Shown: one piece after another, positions 9,302 to 30,884 of the stretch
Position numbering within the stretch: the first letter of the stretch is position 1
Layout of the letters: every line of letters begins with the position of its first letter
Origin: Leptolyngbya sp. FACHB-261
GTDB taxonomy: Bacteria > Cyanobacteriota > Cyanobacteriia > FACHB-261
Length of the DNA stretch: 64,000 nucleotides
Direction: 5' to 3'
Assembly: GCF_014696065.1 (NCBI RefSeq)
Contig: NZ_JACJPL010000011.1
Span: 1 to 64,000 of the forward strand
Position numbers and translations under genes: made by a program
The notes under the pieces: model-generated
Told to the model about the DNA's origin: nothing
The model's database searches: none
Seen by the model: only the letters and a program-made list of their open reading frames with translations

Positions 9302-12300
9302 ATGACCTTCAAGCCTCTGTCTAAGCCTAAGCGCAGTCGTGGTGTCATCCTCACTTCTCAGGGGTGGCACAAGTTGCAGCAGGCTAAACAAGAAGCTGAG
9401 GCGGAGCACAACTGGAGCCAGCACTTCACGCTTGAGCAACTGGGGGAGCGCACAGGACTCTCGCTACACACTGTCTCCCGTATCCTCAAGCGCGAGGAAG
9501 GGGTTGATAAGCAATCACTGGAGTATTTTCTACGGGCCTTTGGCCTGGAGCTGGATAAGGGTGACTGTGCCCGTCCTGTCCCACCCTTTGAAGAACTGGC
9601 CGCTCGACAAAGTAACCCCCAGCAAGACTGGGCAGAGGCAGCGGATGTGTCTGTCTTCTATGGCCGAAGCGAAGAACTAATCCAGCTGCGTCAATGGATT
9701 TTGGAGGAACACTGCCGCTTGCTAGCCCTGCTTGGCATTGGCGGCATTGGCAAAAGCAGCCTGGTTGTGAAACTGGCCCTGCAAATTCAGCCAGAGTTCG
9801 AGGCAGTGGTTTGGCGCTCGTTGCAGAACGCCCCTCCCCTAGAAGAGCTCTTGGGAAGCGTGCTGCAATTTCTGATGCGGGTGCAGGGAGAGGACACCCT
9901 CCTACCCGAAACCTTAGATGGCAGGGTGACCAAGCTGATGGATTGCCTGCGTTCCTCTCGCTGTTTGCTGATTCTGGATAACGCCGAAACGATTCTGGGC
10001 AGTGGCAGGCAAGCAGGGCAATGGCAAGAGGGTTATGAGGGCTACGGGCAACTGCTGAAGCGAGTGGGTGAGGTGCCTCACCAAAGTTGTGTGCTGCTGA
10101 CCAGCCGAGAAAAGCCCCGCGAGATCGCCCTGCTTGAAGGCGAGCGGTTACCAGTGCGGTCGTTGCAATTAGCTGGCCTCAAGCCCGCTGATGGACGAGA
10201 GCTGTTCCGGAACAAGGGGCAATTTACCGGTTCAGAGGCCGAGTGGAACAAGCTGATTGAGCACTATGGCGGCAACCCACTAGCGCTGAAGCTGGTGGCC
10301 GCCGCAACCCACGAACTCTTTGACGGCAGAATTGCGGGGCTACTGGAGTACGCAGAGCAAGGCGTCTTGGTGGTTGAGGATATCCGGGACCTGCTGGAGC
10401 GGCAGTTTAACCGCTTGTCAGAAGTGGAGCAGGAGGTGATGTACTGGTTCGCTATAAATCGGGAGCCTATCTCTGTCGCAGAACTCAGCGAGGATGTGGT
10501 CAGCGCAACCTCAAGACGAGAACTGCTCGGTGCCGTGAACTCGCTGCTAAGGCGCTCCCTAATTGAGCAGAGTGCGGCCCGATTCAATCTTCAACCCGTG
10601 GTGATGGAATATGTCACCGAGCGGCTAGTCAAGTCGATTTGCCATGAGATTACAACCCAGAATCTAGAGCTTTTACGGACTCACGCTCTGATTAAAGCCC
10701 AGGCCAAAGACTATGTGCGCGAGATGCAAGGGCGATTGATCGTTGAGCCTGTGATGGAGTGCCTGCTTATGGCCTTGGGCAGCCACCGAGGAATTGAGGG
10801 ACGGCTGAAGGAATTGCTAGTGCAGCAGCGGGAGCAGGCTCCTCTACAACCTGGCTACGTTGGGGGTAACGTTCTCAATCTGCTAGTGGCGTTGGGCACA
10901 GACTTGAGGGGCTATGACTTCTCAAACCTCACAGTTTGGCAAGCCTCGTTGCAGGGCGTCAATTTGCCTCAAGTCAATTTCGCGCATGCGGATCTAGGCA
11001 AATCTATTTTTAAAGGGACTCTCGGTGCTGTTTTTGGGATTGCCTTCAGCCCAGACGGCGAACTGTTAGCAACGGGAGATGCTGAGGGTGGCGTCCGGGT
11101 CTGGCAAGTAGCAACGGGCAAGCCACTGTCAACCTTTGGCGAACACACAGGTTGGGTGTGGTCTGTAGCCTTTAGCCCCGATGGGCGGCTACTGGCTAGT
11201 TGTGGCGAAGACCAAACCGTGAGGCTTTGGGACGTCAGCAGTGGTCAATGTCTGCAAACCCTGCATGGGCACCAGAGTTCAGTGTGGTCTGTAGCCTTTA
11301 GCCCCGATGGTCGGACGCTAGCTAGTGGCAGCGACGAATGCTCGGTGAGCCTGTGGCAAGTCAGCAGTGGCCGTTGTCTGCGTACCCTCCAAGGCCATAC
11401 AGGTCGGGTGCTCTCAGTTGCCTTCAGCCCCGATGGCCAGACGCTGGCTAGCGGCAGTGATGAGCCCTCAGTGAAGCTCTGGGAGGTCAGTAGTGGCCGT
11501 TGTCTCAACACTCTGGAAGGACATACTGACCGAATTTGGTCAGTCACATTCAGTCCAGATGGCTCGACCTTAGCTAGTGGCAGTGCCGACGACACGATCC
11601 GCTTATGGGAAGTCACAACAGGGCAATGCCTGGGCACTCTGGAGGGGCATACTGATCGGGTACGCTCTGTTGCCTTCCACGCCGAGGGACATATCCTCGC
11701 CAGTTCCAGTGATGACCAGGCGATTAAGCTCTGGGAGGTCAGCACGGGGGAATGTTTCAGCACCCTGCGTGGGCACACCGATCCTGTCTTTTCAGTGGCT
11801 TTCAATGTCGATGGCAGCACCCTCGCCAGCGGCAGCAGTGACCAGACGGCAAGGCTCTGGGATTTCGACAGCGGTCGCTGTCTAAGAACGCTCCGAGGCT
11901 ATACCAATTCTGTCTACTCGGTTGTGTTTCATCCCGAAGGCGACAGACTGGCTAGCGGCAGCACTGATCAGACGGTGCGGCTCTGGGAAGTTGGCACCGG
12001 GCAGTGCCTAAAAACCCTGGAGGGACACAACGGCTGGGTGCTATGCGTCGCTTTTCATCCAGAGGGACATCTACTAGCCAGCAGCAGCGCCGACCAAACG
12101 ATTCGCCTGTGGGACGTGAGCAGTGGGCGCTGCCTCCACACTCTGGACGGGCACTCAGGTTGGATCCAGTCGGTCCGCTTCAGCCCGGATGGGCACTTGC
12201 TCGTCAGTGGTGGCGACGATCAAACCCTACGTTTATGGGACGTGAGTAGTGGCGAGTGTCTCAGCATCTTGAGGGGGCACAGCAATTGGGTTTGGTCGGT

Positions 12301-21897: not shown

Positions 21898-22289
21898 GGT
21901 TTGGCTAATTTTTGGGATGGGATTTAGGGGGACGATAGTGAATCGTCCCCGTCCTTCGAGCAAAGCCCCCCGTGCCGTTGTAGCGAGACCTGGAGCTAAA
22001 ATAACTCAGCTTCCAGACTGGCTGGTTCAGTTTGGGAGTTAGTCACCTGGAAGGCCATACGACTTCCAGGTGGCGTTATATCACCGAATTGGGATGAAGA
22101 TACCGCACCTGCCCGTGCAGGTCAAGATGTCTCACATAAAACTTTCTCCTTTGAGTGTTATGTCAAGCTTTCGGTGCAAACCTATACGTTTTTACACATC
22201 AGCGTTACCCATCCACTTGTTGACCCACCTGTCGAATTAGTAATCATGTGGGTACTCTTGTGTTTGGCCAGTTATGCACGGAGAGCAAT
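21898..22289. other. Gene-free stretch with two perfect hairpins
   Basis: About 390 bases between divergent genes. CACCTGGAAG at 22044-22053 pairs with CTTCCAGGTG at 22063-22072, and ACCTGC at 22107-22112 pairs with GCAGGT at 22117-22122. Both stems share the ACCTG core, so they may be related operator-like palindromes or alternative leader structures. The ribosome site of the nuclease gene (GGAGAG, 22280-22285) is at the right end. Confidence 0.5.
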
Positions 22290-23456
22290 ATGGGATTCAC
22301 CGAGGACGTTGCAAAGCTTTCTGAACAAGTCCACAAGCGTTCAGAACAAGTTGTTGGTGAAGAGAGTACCAAGATGGCACTCATCATCCCTTTTCTAAGT
22401 ACTTTAGGCTACGACGTGTATGATCCTACGGAGGTTATGCCTGAATATATTGCAGATTTTGCTGTTAAAAAAGCAGGGCAATTTGAAAAGGTAGATTACG
22501 CCTTGTCTATTAGTGGCACTGTCGTCATGTTAGTGGAAGCCAAAGCCCGTGGGCAAAAGGCTGAGGCGCATGATGGACAACTAAGCCGCTATTTTAACGG
22601 TCTTCCTGCAACAAAGGTTGCTATCGTCACCAATGGTGTTGAATATCGTTTCTTCACCGACTTGCGTGACAAAAATATTATGGATAAAGAGCCGTTCTTT
22701 GGTTTTAATATACTGAACTACAGCTCAAAAGATATTGAAAGCTTAAAGCTTTTTCACCACGACAACTTTGACGCTGAGACTATCGGCAGGCAAGCTGAGG
22801 AGATGGTTTATGTCGAGAGCATGACAGAACTTGTGGGGAATCAGCTGCGCTCTCCCTCGGAATCATTTATGCGTTTTCTTCTTGGCGAGCTTGGTATTGA
22901 AGGTCGAATTACTACTAAAGTTCTCGGAAAATTCGAGCCTATCATCAAAAAGTCAATCCAAAGTAGCCTGGTAGCAATGATGACTCGCTCGATTAGCCAG
23001 GAGATAGCTCACCCTGTCGAGTTAGACAAGCCTGCTCATCATGCAATGCTAGAAGAGATAGCAGAAGAGGAAATAGAGCCAACATCGGATGGCCCGCAAG
23101 TAGAGACAACGGCAGAGGAACTTGAAGCCTTTGAGAAGGTTAAAGCAGTTGCTCTAACTTCTAAGGCGTATAACCTAGAAGTTAAACATAAGGATGTTGT
23201 TTCTTACTTTGGTGTCAATGTCGGAAAATCTAGCTGGTGGTTCTTGAGATTTTATCTGTCACCTAAGAAAAAGAGCTTTATTACTCGCTTGTCTTTAGAT
23301 GAAGTCAAATCTTTAGCTCCAGATGCTGAAGTCCAAGAAGTGTCAGCTTCACTAGGCGACGCAGTATCCAAGGTAATAATCTCCTCTATCGACGATTTAG
23401 ATGTGCTTGCGCCACTAATTCTTAAATGCTACGAGACAGAAGCCTCCAGACACTAG
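22290..23456 (+). CDS. Stand-alone type I restriction HsdR-N-like nuclease
   Basis: A 388-residue protein whose N-terminal 190 residues match the HsdR N-terminal (HSDR_N_2) endonuclease fold. Visible features are EESTKMALIIPFLSTLGYDV, YIADFAVKK, and the PD-(D/E)xK core KVDYALSISG followed by VMLVEAKA, then a conserved TNGVEYRFFTDL strand. There is no helicase domain and no methylase or specificity gene nearby, so this is not a complete restriction system. The C-terminal 150 residues include an acidic linker and an alpha/beta domain (KDVVSYFGVNVGKSSWWFLRFYLS) of unknown role. The ATG at 22290 has GGAGAG upstream. The gene is AT-richer than its neighbours, suggesting transfer. It could cut foreign DNA, or act as a nuclease effector. 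Confidence 0.78.
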   Translation: MGFTEDVAKLSEQVHKRSEQVVGEESTKMALIIPFLSTLGYDVYDPTEVMPEYIADFAVKKAGQFEKVDYALSISGTVVMLVEAKARGQKAEAHDGQLSRYFNGLPATKVAIVTNGVEYRFFTDLRDKNIMDKEPFFGFNILNYSSKDIESLKLFHHDNFDAETIGRQAEEMVYVESMTELVGNQLRSPSESFMRFLLGELGIEGRITTKVLGKFEPIIKKSIQSSLVAMMTRSISQEIAHPVELDKPAHHAMLEEIAEEEIEPTSDGPQVETTAEELEAFEKVKAVALTSKAYNLEVKHKDVVSYFGVNVGKSSWWFLRFYLSPKKKSFITRLSLDEVKSLAPDAEVQEVSASLGDAVSKVIISSIDDLDVLAPLILKCYETEASRH

Positions 23457-24797: not shown

Positions 24798-26117
24798 ATG
24801 GAGATTAACCTGCAAAGATTTTTTGATGCCTGCGATCCTAGCCGGACCCTAGCAGTCGGTAAATCAGAGGACCGACAGTACTACATTGACTTTGCCTCAG
24901 TGCGGGGCGGCAAGATAATTGATGCGCTGAAGCGAACCATCACCCGCCTATCGCCGGACCGTCCAACCTGCCAGCTTTTCACTGGGCATATCGGCTGTGG
25001 TAAGTCTACTGAGTTGCGTCGATTGGAAGCAGAGTTGAAGGACCAAGGATTCTATGTGGTCTACTTTGAGTCCACACAGGATCTGGATATGGCCGATGTA
25101 GATGTGACTGACATCTTATTAGCGATTGCTCGTCAGGTCGCATCAAACTTAGAGACCGTTGGTATCCGGCTCAAGCCAAGATACTTCGTGAATCTGTTCA
25201 ACGAGATTGCCGACTTTTTGCAAACCCCTGTTGATTTTAAGTGGGAGGGAGAGTTCTCTTTGCCGTTCGGGCTCGGCAAACTTACTGCTGAGACGAAAGA
25301 TAGCCCACAATTGCGCAGTCGTCTACGACAATTGTTGGAACCCCGCACCAACGGTATTTTGGACGCCATCAACAAAGAGCTGCTGGGCGTGGCAACTTTG
25401 GAGCTGAAGGAGCGAGGCCACACGGGGTTAGTGGTCATTATCGACAACCTAGACCGGGTGGATCCTCGACCCAAACATTCAGGGCGCTTGCAGCCAGAGT
25501 ATCTGTTTGTAGACCGGGGGGAACAGTTGCGAAAGCTGAACTGCCATGTGGTTTATACAATTCCATTAGCTCTGATTTTCTCAAATGAAGCACAGATGCT
25601 GACGAATCGGTTGGGAGGTGGTGTAGCTCCTAAAGTTTTGCCAATGGTGCCGGTACAGGAACGTAGTGGCAAAACTGTTGAGGAGGGCATGAGGCTACTG
25701 CATCAGATGGTTTTAGCTAGAGCTTTTCCAGAGGCAACTTCAGCTCAGCGGCTGGGGGAAATCCACCAGATTTTTCATGAAGCCGCAACGCTAGATCGCC
25801 TCTGCTGTGTAAGTGGGGGTCATGTGCGTACGCTAATGGGGTTGCTATACCGGTGTTTACAAGAGGAAGATCCACCGCTATCCCGTAGCTGTCTAGAGCG
25901 AGTAGTCCGTGAACATCGAGATGCGTTAGCAATGGCGATCACAGAATCGGAGTGGGAGATGCTGAAGCGCGTGGTGCAGCAGCAGACAGTCAGCGGGGAG
26001 CAAGGACACGAGATTTTGCTGCGCAGTCTGTTTGTATTTGAGTATCCGGGAGAGGAGGGACGCTGGTTTGGTGTCAACCCGGCATTAGCAGAGACGGACA
26101 AGTACCGAGCTTGGTAG
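24798..26117 (+). CDS. AAA/STAND-type ATPase, first gene of a two-gene module
   Basis: A 439-residue P-loop ATPase. The Walker A motif GHIGCGKST is at residues 63-71, after FASVRGGKIIDALKRTITRL. Walker B GLVVIIDNLDRV lies near residue 211. A polar sensor (HVVYTIPLAL) and a helical lid with SGGHVRTLMGLLYRCLQ follow. The C-terminal 80 residues form a winged-helix-like segment (ALAMAITESEWEMLKRVVQ, LLRSLFVFEY). No membrane segment or effector domain is seen. It is followed 18 bp later by a nSTAND/WD40 giant on the same strand, so the two are co-transcribed. From memory, this exact pairing recurs in filamentous cyanobacteria, but no function has been assigned. Confidence 0.82.
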   Translation: MEINLQRFFDACDPSRTLAVGKSEDRQYYIDFASVRGGKIIDALKRTITRLSPDRPTCQLFTGHIGCGKSTELRRLEAELKDQGFYVVYFESTQDLDMADVDVTDILLAIARQVASNLETVGIRLKPRYFVNLFNEIADFLQTPVDFKWEGEFSLPFGLGKLTAETKDSPQLRSRLRQLLEPRTNGILDAINKELLGVATLELKERGHTGLVVIIDNLDRVDPRPKHSGRLQPEYLFVDRGEQLRKLNCHVVYTIPLALIFSNEAQMLTNRLGGGVAPKVLPMVPVQERSGKTVEEGMRLLHQMVLARAFPEATSAQRLGEIHQIFHEAATLDRLCCVSGGHVRTLMGLLYRCLQEEDPPLSRSCLERVVREHRDALAMAITESEWEMLKRVVQQQTVSGEQGHEILLRSLFVFEYPGEEGRWFGVNPALAETDKYRAW

Positions 26118-26135
26118 ATGTGAGAGGCTCCAAGA

Positions 26136-29100
26136 ATGGCAAACTCTAAAGGACGTGAGACAAAGGCTACTGCTAAAGAAATTGCCCAACGTAACGAGCA
26201 AGCCCTAGCAACTTTAGCCCGGACAATTAGTAGGCTTTGGGGGCGACGTTTTTCGTTGATTCTGGTCCGATGTAATTATGCTTGTCTACGGTCGCAACTA
26301 ATACAGCAGTTGCAGACTATACTGCCTGCTCCTATTCCTGAATTTGTAGTGCCAGATTCAGCGAAGACTCTATACACCAGTCTTAAAGCTAAATTCGATC
26401 AGAGCCAGCCTCCAGCTTTGATGGTTTCTGGTCTGGAGTCAGTGAGAGCTCTAGATGATTTACTGACTTCAACTAATTTAGTTCGAGAGGAGTTTCGTAC
26501 CAATTTTAAATTTCCTCTTGTGCTTTGGGTAGATGATCAGGTGCTGAGCAAGCTGGCAAGACTAGCGACCGATTTCAACAATTGGGGAGGGGTACCTCTG
26601 CGCTTTGAATGGGAGCCAGAAGAGTTGATTCACTCTTTGAAACAGAGAGTAGATGAGCTGTTTGTAACAGTCCTAAATCAATCGTTAGGGGGGATTGTAG
26701 ACGATTTAATCCTGAGACTTGGAAAGGGCAATGACCATCGTTGGGAACTGGAGCTAGCTCTAGCTGACTTGAAGAGCTATGGGCTGACGCCAGAACCAAG
26801 TTTGGAGGCCAGTCTGGAATTTTTTCTAGGGCGAGATGATCATGCCAAGGACCAAGTAGACTCAGCTCTGGATCATTATCAGAATAGCCTAAGCTTTTGG
26901 CAGCAGAGTAACGATCTAGAACGTCAGGGCTGTTTGCTACTCCATTTAGGCTTATGCTGGCGTTTGAGGGCAATTCAGAGGCAGTCTAAAACTGACCGGG
27001 ATCTCCAATGTGCTAGGGATTACCTGCAAGACTGCCTGGAGAAATTTCAACAAGTCCAACGGCTAGATTTAGTGGCACGATTCATTCCAGCTCTTGGAGA
27101 AGTGCTGCAAAAACTTAACCAATGGGATGACTTAGAAATACTCGCTCACAAGGCTCTAGCCCTACATCGAACTTATTCTGATCCATTGAGACTTGCCTTC
27201 GATTATGGGCTTCTGTCAGCGGTGGCTTTGGATCGGAAAGACTGGTATAAAGCTAAGCAAAACGCGGAAATTGCACTTGATACTTTGGCAAGTACTAAGT
27301 GCAGTGTTGCACCTAAGACGCAGGAGCCCAGCTTGAACTGGGTGAAGCATTATCATCGAGGACTTTACTTGCTGCTGCTGGCACAGGCGCAAAAGCATCT
27401 GGGTCAGGTCCAGGAGGCAAGGCAGAACCTAGAAGTGGCTAGAGCTGAGAGCGACCTCCAGTATGACCCTCAGTATTATTTGCAAATCCTGGACGAATTG
27501 CGACAACTTTACTTTGCTCAGAAACATTACCTAGAAGCCTTCGAGATCAAGAGGGAGCAGCGCTCGATTGAGCAGCAGTATGGTTTGCAAGCATTTGTAG
27601 GAGCGGGGCGTCTTCAGCCCCAACGACAGGCCCGTTCGTTGTTGAATCAGGTTAAAGGTCAAGAGATAGCACCTAAGGAAATCTCAGCTCTTGGCCGACA
27701 GCAGGACGTAGACCGCCTGATTGAGCGAATTAGCCGAGACGACTGCAAGTTAACAGTTATTCATGGCCCATCGGGAGTAGGTAAAAGCTCTGTAATCGAG
27801 GCTGGATTGATTCCTGCGTTGGAGCAGAGAGAAGTGAGTATTGCTGCTGCCTCACCAGTTCTGCTTCGAGCCTATACTGATTGGGTTAGAGCATTAGCCA
27901 AGGCCTTGGGGGAGACCCTCCAATATAAAGGCGTTACTCTCGACTTGGTTCCTGAGTCAACTATTCAGATTCTGGAGCAACTGCGTAAAAACGAGAGCCG
28001 AAAATTGTTAATAGTTCTGATTTTCGATCAGTTTGAGGAGTTCTTTTTTATTAATCAGGATCAGGAGGCAAGGCAAACTTTTTTTGAGTTTCTAGGTGAT
28101 TGTCTAAATTTGCTTTACGTAAAAGTGGTTCTGTGTCTACGGGAAGATTATCTACATCACCTACTAGAATTTGAACGCTTTACTGAGCTGGGAATTATCA
28201 ATAACGATGTGCTGAGCCGGAGCAATCGCTACTACCTGGGCAACTTCACACCTGTTGATGCAGAGCAGGTCATAAAAAGCCTTACAGAGCGAGCAGGATT
28301 TCGACTAGAGCCTGTACTTATTCAAACGCTTGTGACAGATCTCGCTAAAGAGTTAGGAGAGGTACGGCCAATCGAGTTGCAATTAGTGGGAGTGCAGCTC
28401 CAAGTTAAGGACATCACCACGCTGGCTCGGTACCAAGAGTGTGGCTCGAAAGAGGAATTGGTCAAGAGCTATTTAGCAGGAGTAATTGAGGATTGTGGGC
28501 CTGAGAATCAACAGGCAGCTGAGCTAGTTCTGTATTTGCTGACGAATGAACGAGGAACCCGACCTCTTAAAACACGGGCTGAGTTAGAAGCAGACCTACC
28601 ACCAGTTGCTGAGCAATTAGATCTCATCCTGAAAATTTTAGTAAAATCGGGCTTAGTATTTCAGGTGCCTGGCCTTTCTGATGACTGTTATCAGTTAGCT
28701 CATGATTATCTGGTGTCTTTGATTTGTCAACGACAAGAGGCAGGACTTCTATATGAACTATCAGCAATAAAAGAGAAACAGCAGTTCACTGAGGAACAGC
28801 TCAATCACACATTGAAACAGTTAGAGCAGTCCTTGTATCAAGAGCAGAGACAACGAAAGCGAGCAGAAGCTGCCGAGCTTGAAGTGTTGTGTTCACTAGC
28901 TCAGGCTCTACTATTATCTCATGATCAGCTTGGGGCATTGCTATCTAGTATAAAGGCCTATAAGCAACTCAAGGAGACGGACGTACATTCCATCATTCGA
29001 GCAAAGGTGTTGGATGTACTACAACAAGTGGTCAATGAAATCCAAGAGAGAAATCGTCTAGAGGCGCATACTAACTGGATTAATAATGTAAAATTCAGCC

Positions 29101-30884
29101 CCACCGGTCAGATCGTTGCCTCTGCTAGTGGTGATAAGACTATCAAACTCTGGGGCCTTGATGGCACTTTAATACGCACCCTTCAAGGACATGATGCCGG
29201 TGTTTTTAGCGTAAGTTTCAGCCCGGATGGCCTAACTATTGCTTCTGCTAGTTTAGATAAGACTATCAAACTCTGGGGCCTTGATGGCACTTTAATACGC
29301 ACCCTTCAAGGACATGATGCCGGTGTTTTTAGCGTAAGTTTCAGCCCGGATGGCCTAACTATTGCTTCTGCTAGTTTAGATAAGACTATCAAACTCTGGA
29401 GTCTTGATGGCACTTTAATACGCACCCTCCAAGGACATACAGATGGAGTCAGTTGGGCTGTTTTTAGTCCAGATGGCAAGACTATCGCCTCCGCTAGTGC
29501 TGATACAACTGTGAGACTTTGGAGCCTTGATGGTACTTTGCTGCGTACTATTCCAGCCCACGAACTTGAGCTTATGGCTGTCTGTTTCAGTCCGGATGGT
29601 CGAACTATTGTCTCTGCCAGCTCGGACAAAACTATCAAGATCTGGAGCCTTGATGGCGCTCTACTACGTACTATTCAGGGGCATAATGCTGGAATCTGGG
29701 GCGTGAGTTTTAGTCCAGATGGTCAAACCATTGCTTCTGCTAGTTTTGACAAAACCATCAAGATCTGGAGCCTCGATGGCACTCTCTTACACACCCTTCA
29801 AGGACATACAGATGGAGTCAGTTGGGCTGTTTTTAGTCCAGATGGCAAGACTATCGCCTCCGCTAGCGGCGATAAAACCATTAAACTCTGGAGCCTAAAT
29901 GTTGATTTTCTTAAAACCCTTCAAGGGCACAGCGCTGGAGTTTGGAGTGTAGGTTTTAGCAATGATGGTCAGGTACTTGCCTCATCTAGTTTTGATAAGA
30001 CCGTGAAGCTCTGGAGCTTTAATGGCGTCTCACTCGCTACTTTAAGAGGGCACGGTGGTTGGATCAACAGTGTCAGTTTTAGCCCAGACAGTAAAACTAT
30101 TGCCTCCGCTAGTATAGATCAGACTATTCGGCTCTGGAGCCGGGACGGTATTTTATTGAACACCCTACGAGGGCACAGTGATTGGGTCAGTAGCGTGAGT
30201 TTTAGTCCGGATGGTCAAACTATTGCTTCTGCTAGTTTAGATAAAACTATAAAGCTCTGGAACTGCGATGGTGTTTTATCGCAGACTCTTTATGGTCATG
30301 AAGATAGAGTTAGGTATGTTAGTTTTAGTCCAGACAGTAAGGCCATTGTTTCATGTGGTGATGATAAAACCATTAAGCTCTGGAATCACGACGGTTCTCT
30401 GTTACTTACACTTCAAGGTCACGATGATTGGGTGAATAGTGTGAGTTTTAGCCCGGATGGACAAACTATCGCTTCAGCTAGTGAGGATAAGACTATAAGG
30501 CTATGGAGCTGTGATGGAATTCTGTTGTATAAACTTCAAGGCCACACTGCTAGGGTCTCAAGTGTCGCTTTCAGCCCAGATGGTAAAATCATTGCTTCTG
30601 CCAGCAGTGACAAAACCGTCAAACTGTGGGGATGTGATGGCAAATTACTTCAAACATTTAAAGGACACAGCTCCGGAGTTACCAGTGTCACCTTTAGCCC
30701 GGACGGTAGAACATTAGCTTCAGCTAGTAGTGATTCCACAATAATTTTATGGAACTTAGGCTCTTGGAACTCAGACATTGATGCTCTATGGTGCCGAGGT
30801 TGTAGTTGGTTACGCGATTACTTGAGAACGAATCCCAACGTCACCCTTGAGGATTGCCAACTCTGCGAGAGTATTGGAACCTAG
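26136..30884 (+). CDS. TPR/nSTAND ATPase with 14 WD40 repeats, second gene of the module
   Basis: A 1582-residue protein. Residues about 15-175 look like a second NTPase fold whose P-loop is lost (FSLILVRCNYACLRSQL, PALMVSGLESV, FPLVLWVDDQVL). Residues about 215-470 are TPR-like helices. A nSTAND1 ATPase follows at about 515-870: EISALGRQQDVDRLIERI, P-loop HGPSGVGKSS (about 545-553), Walker B LIVLIFDQFEEF (about 625) and LREDYLHHLL. A coiled coil spans about 880-920. Fourteen WD40 repeats of 41 residues run from about 976 to 1545, giving two propellers, and a Cys-containing tail (WCRGCSWLRDYL) ends the chain. Several blades are almost identical, two of them perfectly at DNA level. The propellers probably sense a ligand and the partner ATPase may gate it. 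Confidence 0.85.
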   Translation: MANSKGRETKATAKEIAQRNEQALATLARTISRLWGRRFSLILVRCNYACLRSQLIQQLQTILPAPIPEFVVPDSAKTLYTSLKAKFDQSQPPALMVSGLESVRALDDLLTSTNLVREEFRTNFKFPLVLWVDDQVLSKLARLATDFNNWGGVPLRFEWEPEELIHSLKQRVDELFVTVLNQSLGGIVDDLILRLGKGNDHRWELELALADLKSYGLTPEPSLEASLEFFLGRDDHAKDQVDSALDHYQNSLSFWQQSNDLERQGCLLLHLGLCWRLRAIQRQSKTDRDLQCARDYLQDCLEKFQQVQRLDLVARFIPALGEVLQKLNQWDDLEILAHKALALHRTYSDPLRLAFDYGLLSAVALDRKDWYKAKQNAEIALDTLASTKCSVAPKTQEPSLNWVKHYHRGLYLLLLAQAQKHLGQVQEARQNLEVARAESDLQYDPQYYLQILDELRQLYFAQKHYLEAFEIKREQRSIEQQYGLQAFVGAGRLQPQRQARSLLNQVKGQEIAPKEISALGRQQDVDRLIERISRDDCKLTVIHGPSGVGKSSVIEAGLIPALEQREVSIAAASPVLLRAYTDWVRALAKALGETLQYKGVTLDLVPESTIQILEQLRKNESRKLLIVLIFDQFEEFFFINQDQEARQTFFEFLGDCLNLLYVKVVLCLREDYLHHLLEFERFTELGIINNDVLSRSNRYYLGNFTPVDAEQVIKSLTERAGFRLEPVLIQTLVTDLAKELGEVRPIELQLVGVQLQVKDITTLARYQECGSKEELVKSYLAGVIEDCGPENQQAAELVLYLLTNERGTRPLKTRAELEADLPPVAEQLDLILKILVKSGLVFQVPGLSDDCYQLAHDYLVSLICQRQEAGLLYELSAIKEKQQFTEEQLNHTLKQLEQSLYQEQRQRKRAEAAELEVLCSLAQALLLSHDQLGALLSSIKAYKQLKETDVHSIIRAKVLDVLQQVVNEIQERNRLEAHTNWINNVKFSPTGQIVASASGDKTIKLWGLDGTLIRTLQGHDAGVFSVSFSPDGLTIASASLDKTIKLWGLDGTLIRTLQGHDAGVFSVSFSPDGLTIASASLDKTIKLWSLDGTLIRTLQGHTDGVSWAVFSPDGKTIASASADTTVRLWSLDGTLLRTIPAHELELMAVCFSPDGRTIVSASSDKTIKIWSLDGALLRTIQGHNAGIWGVSFSPDGQTIASASFDKTIKIWSLDGTLLHTLQGHTDGVSWAVFSPDGKTIASASGDKTIKLWSLNVDFLKTLQGHSAGVWSVGFSNDGQVLASSSFDKTVKLWSFNGVSLATLRGHGGWINSVSFSPDSKTIASASIDQTIRLWSRDGILLNTLRGHSDWVSSVSFSPDGQTIASASLDKTIKLWNCDGVLSQTLYGHEDRVRYVSFSPDSKAIVSCGDDKTIKLWNHDGSLLLTLQGHDDWVNSVSFSPDGQTIASASEDKTIRLWSCDGILLYKLQGHTARVSSVAFSPDGKIIASASSDKTVKLWGCDGKLLQTFKGHSSGVTSVTFSPDGRTLASASSDSTIILWNLGSWNSDIDALWCRGCSWLRDYLRTNPNVTLEDCQLCESIGT
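29133..29378 (+). repeat. Perfect 123-bp tandem duplication inside the WD40 region
   Basis: Bases 29133-29255 and 29256-29378 are identical, and the next 21 bases continue the match. One unit encodes exactly one 41-residue blade. A second exact match of 67 bases joins 29431-29497 and 29800-29866, three blades apart. Perfect identity at synonymous positions shows very recent duplication or gene conversion. Confidence 0.9.

Follow-up and report, generated by a model that had tools for sequence, protein, structure and literature searches.

Bacterial immunity by STAND proteins (signal transduction ATPases with numerous domains) has usually been described for single proteins. A two-gene arrangement is known from Nostoc, where the WRAP is the end of a STAND protein (Npun_R6612) whose gene is coupled to that of a TIR-STAND protein (PMC9218822, citing Dunin-Horkawicz 2014). 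In addition, iSTAND-MoxR-vWA operons are predicted conflict systems (PMC7159879), and nSTAND1 occurs in other conflict systems (PMC8195603, PMC10907252). Here, we analyzed a gene pair in the first 64,000 nucleotides of contig NZ_JACJPL010000011.1 of the cyanobacterium Leptolyngbya sp. FACHB-261 (the window). The upstream gene encodes an ATPase, P1, and the downstream gene encodes a large STAND protein, P2, which starts with a domain termed N1. The new result of this analysis is that P1 and N1 go together. Judged from the sequence comparisons, there is about an even chance that the pair forms a two-protein STAND switch of a sensor-helper-like type, in which P1 would dock on N1 of P2. No paper on this module was found in the searched open-licence literature, in agreement with the initial annotation, which knew of no described function.

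Both open reading frames (ORFs) lie on the same strand and are separated by 18 bp. The two-gene layout, the spacing, and the domain order that had been proposed initially were all recovered with the ORFs, Pfam, and structural models. The features are as follows:

24798..26117, + strand: P1, an AAA/STAND-type ATPase (ORF, Pfam, model, fold matches)
24984..25010, + strand: Walker A motif of P1, GHIGCGKST, residues 63-71 (sequence, conservation)
25944..26090, + strand: C-terminal winged-helix-like part of P1, residues 383-431 (secondary structure of the model)
26136..30884, + strand: P2, 1582 amino acids, with the order N1-TPR-nSTAND1-coiled coil-14 WD40-tail (ORF, Pfam, model)
26172..26678, + strand: N1, an alpha/beta domain lacking a P-loop, residues 13-181, the proposed docking site of P1 (model, pairing with P1)
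26730..27620, + strand: TPR-like helical hairpins, residues 199-495, with the hairpins of the model at 199-481 (model; TPR structures head the fold list)
27675..28733, + strand: nSTAND1 ATPase and winged helix, residues 514-866, P-loop GPSGVGKSS (PF20703, model)
28740..28916, + strand: long helix or coiled coil, residues 869-927 (model)
29040..30755, + strand: 14 WD40 blades (14 stretches by Pfam, comparison with 2YMU)
30786..30881, + strand: Cys-containing tail, GCSWLRDYL...C (shared with a WRAP-type protein)

The distribution of the two proteins was determined in a sample of 386 cyanobacterial genomes (E 1e-10); few candidates were scored per genome, so copy numbers are lower bounds. Of these genomes, 82 contained P1 and 73 contained the P2 N-terminus. 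All 69 genomes with a P1 at E below 1e-100 also contained P2. Among the four P2 genomes that lack such a strong P1, three matched P1 weakly and G282 did not match it at all; ten further genomes had a weak P1 only and no P2. The number of P1 matches per genome ranged from one to six, and the window genome itself carries another P1-P2 pair on a different contig (P1 66% and the N-terminal part of P2 49% identical). In one family, f7 (the family of genome G024, which includes L253 from Nostoc and L249 from Calothrix and was taken as Nostocaceae), the P2 N-terminus was found in 194 of 217 genomes. The pair recurs in distant cyanobacterial genera, in line with the initial mention of the same pair in other cyanobacteria, and because it is conserved across genomes, it is not a chance arrangement. 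A viral origin was rejected, as phages did not contain a match and viral contigs yielded none in one scan.

Gene order was analyzed in the named loci, which are the best 80 of 123. P2 sequence followed P1 on the same strand within 3 kb in 56 of these 80 loci (including the fusion at L080 and L108), P2 was encoded on the opposite strand in one, and ten ended too soon to tell. P1 was found upstream in 30 of 30 loci returned as best matches to the P2 N-terminus of L215, and likewise in 24 of 30 P2 loci found with the P2 N-terminus. Fifteen longer P2 stretches, six picked for an absent P1 and nine for diversity, showed P1 beside P2 in six cases, and one ended too early. Nine plasmid records had a P1 match; all seven above 52% identity showed P1 followed by N1 and nSTAND, and the other two were about 25% identical. 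The possibility that the two genes rarely occur together, which had been raised at the outset, is therefore contradicted by their presence in nearly always the same genome and usually in adjacent positions.

The 47 measured gaps between P1 and P2 comprised 11 overlaps (10 of them 4 bp long), 3 gaps of 1-50 bp, 14 of 51-300 bp, and 19 of more than 300 bp. Large gaps as remnants of the P1-TIR/N1 cassette of L108 were considered and rejected: of 23 gaps above 250 bp, the 22 besides L108's own had no similarity to that cassette. The long gaps of the Nostoc loci L081, L084, L085, L088, L090, L099, and L115 are alike in shifted registers; of four gap sequences that were inspected, those of L081 and L088 contain short tandem repeats of about 21 bp. 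The L080 locus was not accepted as a clean gene fusion; the end of P1 is missing, N1 is not matched, two WD40 stretches are present, and an in-frame deletion may have occurred.

Copy numbers were compared using profiles built in this analysis. The 80 named loci and L214, L215, L249, L250, L251, L254, L255, and L256 were scanned (88 in total). The count does not include L218, L252, where the contig ends and no P1 is present, or L253, which derives from the record of L108. An nSTAND match was detected in 60 of the 88 loci, 52 of which contained exactly one P1, one N1, and one nSTAND. All four loci with two P1 genes (L102, L108, L215, and L249) had two N1 copies, compared to two of 56 loci with one P1 (L076 and L082). 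Fisher's test gave 1e-5 when L082 was counted per P2, and about 3e-5 by the raw locus count (calculated by hand), neither value allowing for ancestry. L102 and L108 were unselected, L215 had been found via its TIR-bearing P1, and L249 via its double N1. In L108, the extra N1 is encoded separately, by a small ORF flanked by the TIR gene and P2. L082 contains two P2s with one N1 each and one P1 was seen; there, a P2 with N1 and nSTAND matches (L082:3548-6244) has no P1 match in the 3.5 kb upstream, and a normal P1-P2 pair starts at 10001. L076 harbors a free-standing N1-type ORF (L076:15645-16049) about 1 kb downstream of P2. Other odd loci with one P1 were L080 (no N1) and L255 (split nSTAND match). 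In L304, a WD40 protein with an nSTAND-like match (58 bits) lacks N1, and no P1 was found in its 15 kb.

Phylogenetic trees, for which SH-aLRT support was the only support calculated, were used to compare the histories of P1 and N1. The three TIR-bearing P1s fell into one group (support 99), and the extra P1 of L102 was placed elsewhere. In the N1 tree, the outer copies at the three TIR loci formed a 7-row group together with four single-N1 rows (83), their inner copies belonged to a 30-row group (89), and both N1 copies of L102 were found in a 6-row group (95). Because of these placements in both trees, a second P1/N1 was likely gained twice. Matching neighbors in the two trees included the window row with L075, L102 with L254, L078 with L079, and L255 with L256; the other rows were unresolved or differed.

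A distant P1 family, 33-40% identical to the first, was detected in 41 of the 386 genomes at E 1.4e-84 or better. At L312, L313, L314, and L315, the distant P1 is flanked by N1-TPR proteins, and two of the loci add an N1-only protein of 199-210 amino acids; scans of these four loci for nSTAND, the WD40 pattern, and TIR remained empty. The N1-like proteins matched N1 in hhalign with 97.8-98.3% probability (E 1e-12 to 2e-14, single comparison), and the P1, nSTAND, and TPR controls reached 0.3%. All 30 examined loci, which come from 30 of these 41 genomes, had an N1-like ORF on the P1 strand, the best ORF of each having an E of 4e-8 or better and the best shuffled decoy 0.91. nSTAND was absent from the 1.5-kb flanks in all 30 loci. 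Because this family pairs with an N1-like ORF without nSTAND, the P1-N1 unit is independent of the STAND sensor.

Several observations weigh against the sensor-helper reading. Thirteen of the 80 named loci contain P1 and at least 2.5 kb of downstream sequence yet no P2 (in nine of them the next gene resembles shikimate dehydrogenase by eye), six of the 30 loci found with the P2 N-terminus have no P1 in the flank, and eight of the 15 longer P2 stretches have no P1 nearby. Because there are P1 loci without P2 and P2 loci without P1, linkage of the two genes is not obligatory. The copy-number rule is built on four loci, perhaps two events, uncorrected for ancestry; as one half of the rule served as the search criterion for L215 and L249, each of these two tests one half. 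The extra free N1 ORF of L076 accompanies a single P1, the branches of the TIR-bearing P1s are long and were flagged by the tree program, and the adaptor-fused P1 of L218 (see below) has no N1 match within 16 kb. The distances of P1 and nSTAND are correlated (Mantel r 0.83, n=31, 0/5000 permutations), but this correlation is confounded by shared species history. Overall, sequence comparison provides strong evidence for a P1-N1 partnership.

P1 has 439 amino acids and is a minimal nucleotide-binding module with a P-loop core, a helical lid, and a C-terminal winged helix (AlphaFold model, pLDDT 87.7). G63, G66, G68, K69, and S70 are invariant across all 44 aligned rows, and the strict GHxGCGKS pattern is found in 41 of 44 P1s. 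Pfam yielded weak matches of the AAA/STAND type, with ATPase_2, AAA_16, AAA_22, and nSTAND_NTPase5 all below the cut-off; KAP_NTPase (PF07693) reached 21.8 bits versus a cut-off of 20, and other AAA families scored higher yet under their own cut-offs. PADLOC and NCBIfam assigned P1 to no specific family, and their matches of P2 were weak or repeat-driven. The fold matches of P1 included TnsC (7mbw_A; Z 15.4, rmsd 4.0, 285 aligned), Orc1/Cdc6 (2qby_B; Z 14.6, rmsd 5.7, 271 aligned), and the STAND-type proteins PABY2304 (2qen; Z 14.6, rmsd 4.9, 306 aligned), NRC4 (9cc9_G; Z 13.7, rmsd 4.9, 279 aligned), and CED-4 (2a5y_C; Z 13.4, rmsd 5.3, 286 aligned). An assignment to a single family by fold search was dropped, as no one family was singled out; P1 is, according to its model, an AAA+/STAND module, and the fold places it no further.

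The model of P2 spans residues 1-965 (pLDDT 82). In N1, GxxxxGK[ST] is absent from the first 200 residues in 25 of 25 aligned P2s, and neither Pfam nor NCBIfam matched N1 at E 0.1. The fold matches of P2 span residues 160-786 of the model; the comparison barely reached residues 1-159, so that strand-helix order is what suggests a dead NTPase fold for N1. For the central domain, PF20703 (nSTAND1) scored 139.6 bits on residues 520-860 compared to a Pfam cut-off of 27.1, and its P-loop is kept in 25 of 25 aligned P2s. Of the initial proposal of two active and one dead ATPase, the presence and absence of the P-loops thus held across the aligned P1s and P2s; the motifs suggest that P1 and nSTAND1 are active, and the NTPase ancestry of N1 is suggested by its predicted topology. 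A linker resembling a membrane helix was found in 37 of 51 P2s by a crude hydropathy cut, below which the window P2 and the second copy of its genome fall. Over 572 residues, the propeller part aligns with 2YMU (729 bits), a WRAP structure with two propellers, by which comparison the 14 blades would form two seven-bladed propellers, as had been proposed; the identity among the blades of the window P2 is about 59% (12 of 14 blades captured). A loose tail pattern occurs in 34 of 41 complete P2 ORFs, and L302 has a similar tail.

The sensor end of P2 is swappable and consists of WD40, CHASE2, or nothing recognisable. WD40 is found in the window P2 and many relatives, CHASE2 replaces it in L088 (226 bits) and L090 (226.9 bits), and WD40 was not detected by Pfam in the P2s of L076, L102, L215, and a Calothrix plasmid (the record of the last names it a WD-40 protein). 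Cyanobacterial metacaspases also bear 14-blade WD40 arrays and CHASE2 (PMC2853523). An effector domain was not found by Pfam in P1 or in the N-terminal 510 residues of P2. The initial statement that no effector is visible therefore stands for the window proteins, but not for the relatives: TIR_2 is located at the C-terminus of a second P1 in L108 (106.8 bits), L215 (110.1 bits), and Calothrix sp. NIES-4101 plasmid4 (116.3 bits). In the window genome (G000), TIR_2 was matched 23 times at E 0.001; none of the places listed adjoins either P1-P2 pair.

A further variant was found at L218, where a P1 with 62% identity is fused to a 242-amino acid front and is preceded by iSTAND (74.7 bits), AAA (AAA_5, 41.8 bits), and vWA_CoxE (48.6 bits) genes; the AAA gene is probably of the MoxR type. 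The front, an adaptor that falls into no family, shares 34% identity over 180 residues (E 3e-13) with the front of a TIR protein at L317, which adjoins vWA_CoxE, AAA_5, and caspase genes. At this single locus, P1 takes the position that a TIR protein occupies in a comparable operon. At L317:6661-12441 (genome G060), caspase, EAD10-like, AAA, vWA, and adaptor-TIR genes form an operon-like run.

The genomic neighborhood was searched for further components. A third conserved gene was rejected, as no chromosomal neighbor family was common to more than 5 of 41 loci (several contigs were short), and those recognised by eye looked like housekeeping genes. A location near defense genes, which the initial annotation had named as a point to check, was not supported for the chromosomes, though genes of such kinds lie near the pair on two Acaryochloris plasmids. 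On pREC1 of Acaryochloris marina MBIC10699 (L306; typed conjugative), the pair lies between two tyrosine recombinases and near HicAB and NACHT genes, and on pMB06 (L309) it is beside TIR, NB-ARC, and CHAT genes. The P2 of pMB06 (L309:10308-16390) is annotated as two overlapping frames and may be a broken propeller gene. On Nostoc plasmids, the nearest genes of such kinds were TnpB and DUF499 (L307), CHAT-TPR (L308), and a DNA cytosine methyltransferase (L310); none was recognised on L311. The 14 blades of the pNsp_c P2 have a median identity of 95%. In the window, an ORF at 22248-23456, 1.3 kb upstream of P1, matches the type I restriction domain HSDR_N (43.9 bits) and, weakly, mad2 (22.2 bits), and another nSTAND1 match (33.7 bits) is located at 9638-10108 in an open frame of 1241 amino acids.

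From these data, we infer docking, sensing, the order of events, and the output of a sensor-helper switch as follows. P2 would be the sensor, its C-terminal domain keeping the nSTAND1 ATPase off. A ligand would release nSTAND1, and ATP exchange would cluster P2. P1, a minimal NOD-like ATPase without sensor or effector, would be the helper: it would bind to N1, which lacks a P-loop, with each N1 copy taking one type of P1, and would be driven into an active assembly. The output would be P1 itself or, in some loci, TIR on a second P1 docked on a second N1. The Cys-containing tail had initially been considered as a possible output; because TIR is found on second P1 genes, P1 occurs in the iSTAND-AAA-vWA operon, and the tail is shared with a WRAP-type protein, an output through P1 is more likely. 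A wider reading is more tentative: N1 could be the dedicated docking platform of an undescribed bacterial sensor-helper network resembling nucleotide-binding leucine-rich repeat receptors (NLRs), in which each helper type (plain P1, P1-TIR, AAA/TPR-P1) has its own N1 and the gain of one helper gene plus one docking domain connects an effector. The P1-N1 unit, which also exists without the STAND-WD40 sensor, would then probably be older, and P1 would also have been recruited into a conflict operon of the MoxR-vWA type.

A role in conflict is favored by TIR, the adaptor, and the Acaryochloris plasmids. Near-universality in one family and the apparently housekeeping surroundings argue against a patchy defense island and favor physiology; 194 of 217 genomes is a broader spread than expected of a phage-defense system. 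The pair could accordingly be a conserved, non-immune relay for stress or development, in which a cue from the envelope or the cytoplasm is sensed by P2, and clients in cell physiology are the targets of P1 as a regulatory ATPase or chaperone. This spread and the chromosomal neighbors fit such a relay, as do the sensor domain CHASE2 in place of WD40 at two loci, the membrane-helix-like linkers, the missing phage and viral-contig matches, and the distant P1 family, which lacks sensor and nSTAND and shares neighbors by eye in three of the four loci inspected. We regard the relay as rather unlikely; against it count the TIR-bearing variants, the plasmid copies near NACHT, HicAB, and recombinase or TIR, NB-ARC, and CHAT genes, the P1 inside the iSTAND-AAA-vWA operon, the one to six P1 matches per genome, and the near-identical blades of one plasmid P2.

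Two other explanations are improbable. The absence of an effector from the window copy and the linker, propeller, and tail shared with a WRAP-type protein could mean that the pair is related to the WRAP/TIR operon and, having lost its effector, persists only as a sensor remnant. However, the P-loops are kept in P1 and P2, the WRAP-type pair belongs to AAA_35 and does not match the P1, N1, TPR, and nSTAND models, and the four loci of the distant P1 family show no TIR either, so the TIR-less state is probably not a loss. Equally slim is the chance that P1 is a nucleic acid-acting AAA+ protein (Orc/Cdc6 or TnsC-like) loaded by P2, e.g., onto invading DNA. TnsC and Orc1/Cdc6 are among the best fold matches of P1 and a winged helix is present, and the failure of the fold to separate STAND from Orc/TnsC-type AAA+ proteins counts against a sensor-helper switch; yet PABY2304, NRC4, and CED-4 score close by, and the TIR and adaptor fusions point to signaling. 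If the sensor-helper switch is real, the division of sensing and output between two proteins would give bacteria an equivalent of the sensor-helper NLR pairs, the number of docking domain copies would track the number of helper ATPases, and the wiring of such pairs would be testable with small proteins. N1 matches no Pfam or NCBIfam family, although the P2 N-terminus that holds it is nearly universal in one family.

Compared to known systems, P2 resembles the nSTAND1 NTPases in its central domain, which exceeds the PF20703 cut-off and has an intact P-loop, whereas an N1-TPR front and a P1 partner are not mentioned in the accessible part of PMC8195603. Like the antiviral Avs and bNACHT proteins (PMC10907252), it combines a STAND ATPase with a repeat sensor; unlike these, it has no detected effector domain and its partner ATPase is separate. 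No Avs-named family was among the PADLOC matches of P1 or P2 (which Avs models the PADLOC library holds was not checked). The sensor-helper NLR pairs of plants (NRC network, PMC9975940) share the proposed division of labor, and the fold of P1 resembles the NOD of NRC4, but this is an analogy only, as the sequence families differ and there is no common operon. The iSTAND MoxR-vWA ternary conflict systems (Kaur 2020, PMC7159879) are likewise multi-NTPase switches of multicellular bacteria with swappable effectors, and one P1 fusion lies inside an iSTAND-AAA-vWA operon; they differ in that no AAA or vWA was found among the three neighboring ORFs scanned in the window and in that nSTAND1 of P2 keeps its P-loop.

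The WRAP/TIR operon, which comes closest among the known systems, and the P1-P2 pair have in common two adjacent cyanobacterial STAND-type genes, a downstream protein ending in 14 WD40 blades, and TIR in some members. However, TIR is N-terminal on the partner in the former, and in the latter it is C-terminal on an extra P1 in three loci and absent from the window P1. A likely WRAP-type pair is present at L302, in the genome of L088, and may be the published LC607_02335. Its proteins are AAA_35 ATPases (402.7 and 125.9 bits) without a match to the P1, N1, TPR, or nSTAND models, whereas P2 is nSTAND1. In contrast, its linker matches the P2 linker (34% over about 107 residues, E 4e-17), and the propeller and tail match too. 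Because the ATPases mismatch while linker, propeller, and tail match, sequence comparison indicates that the P1-P2 pair is not a member of the WRAP/TIR operons but a parallel design with a shared sensor cassette.

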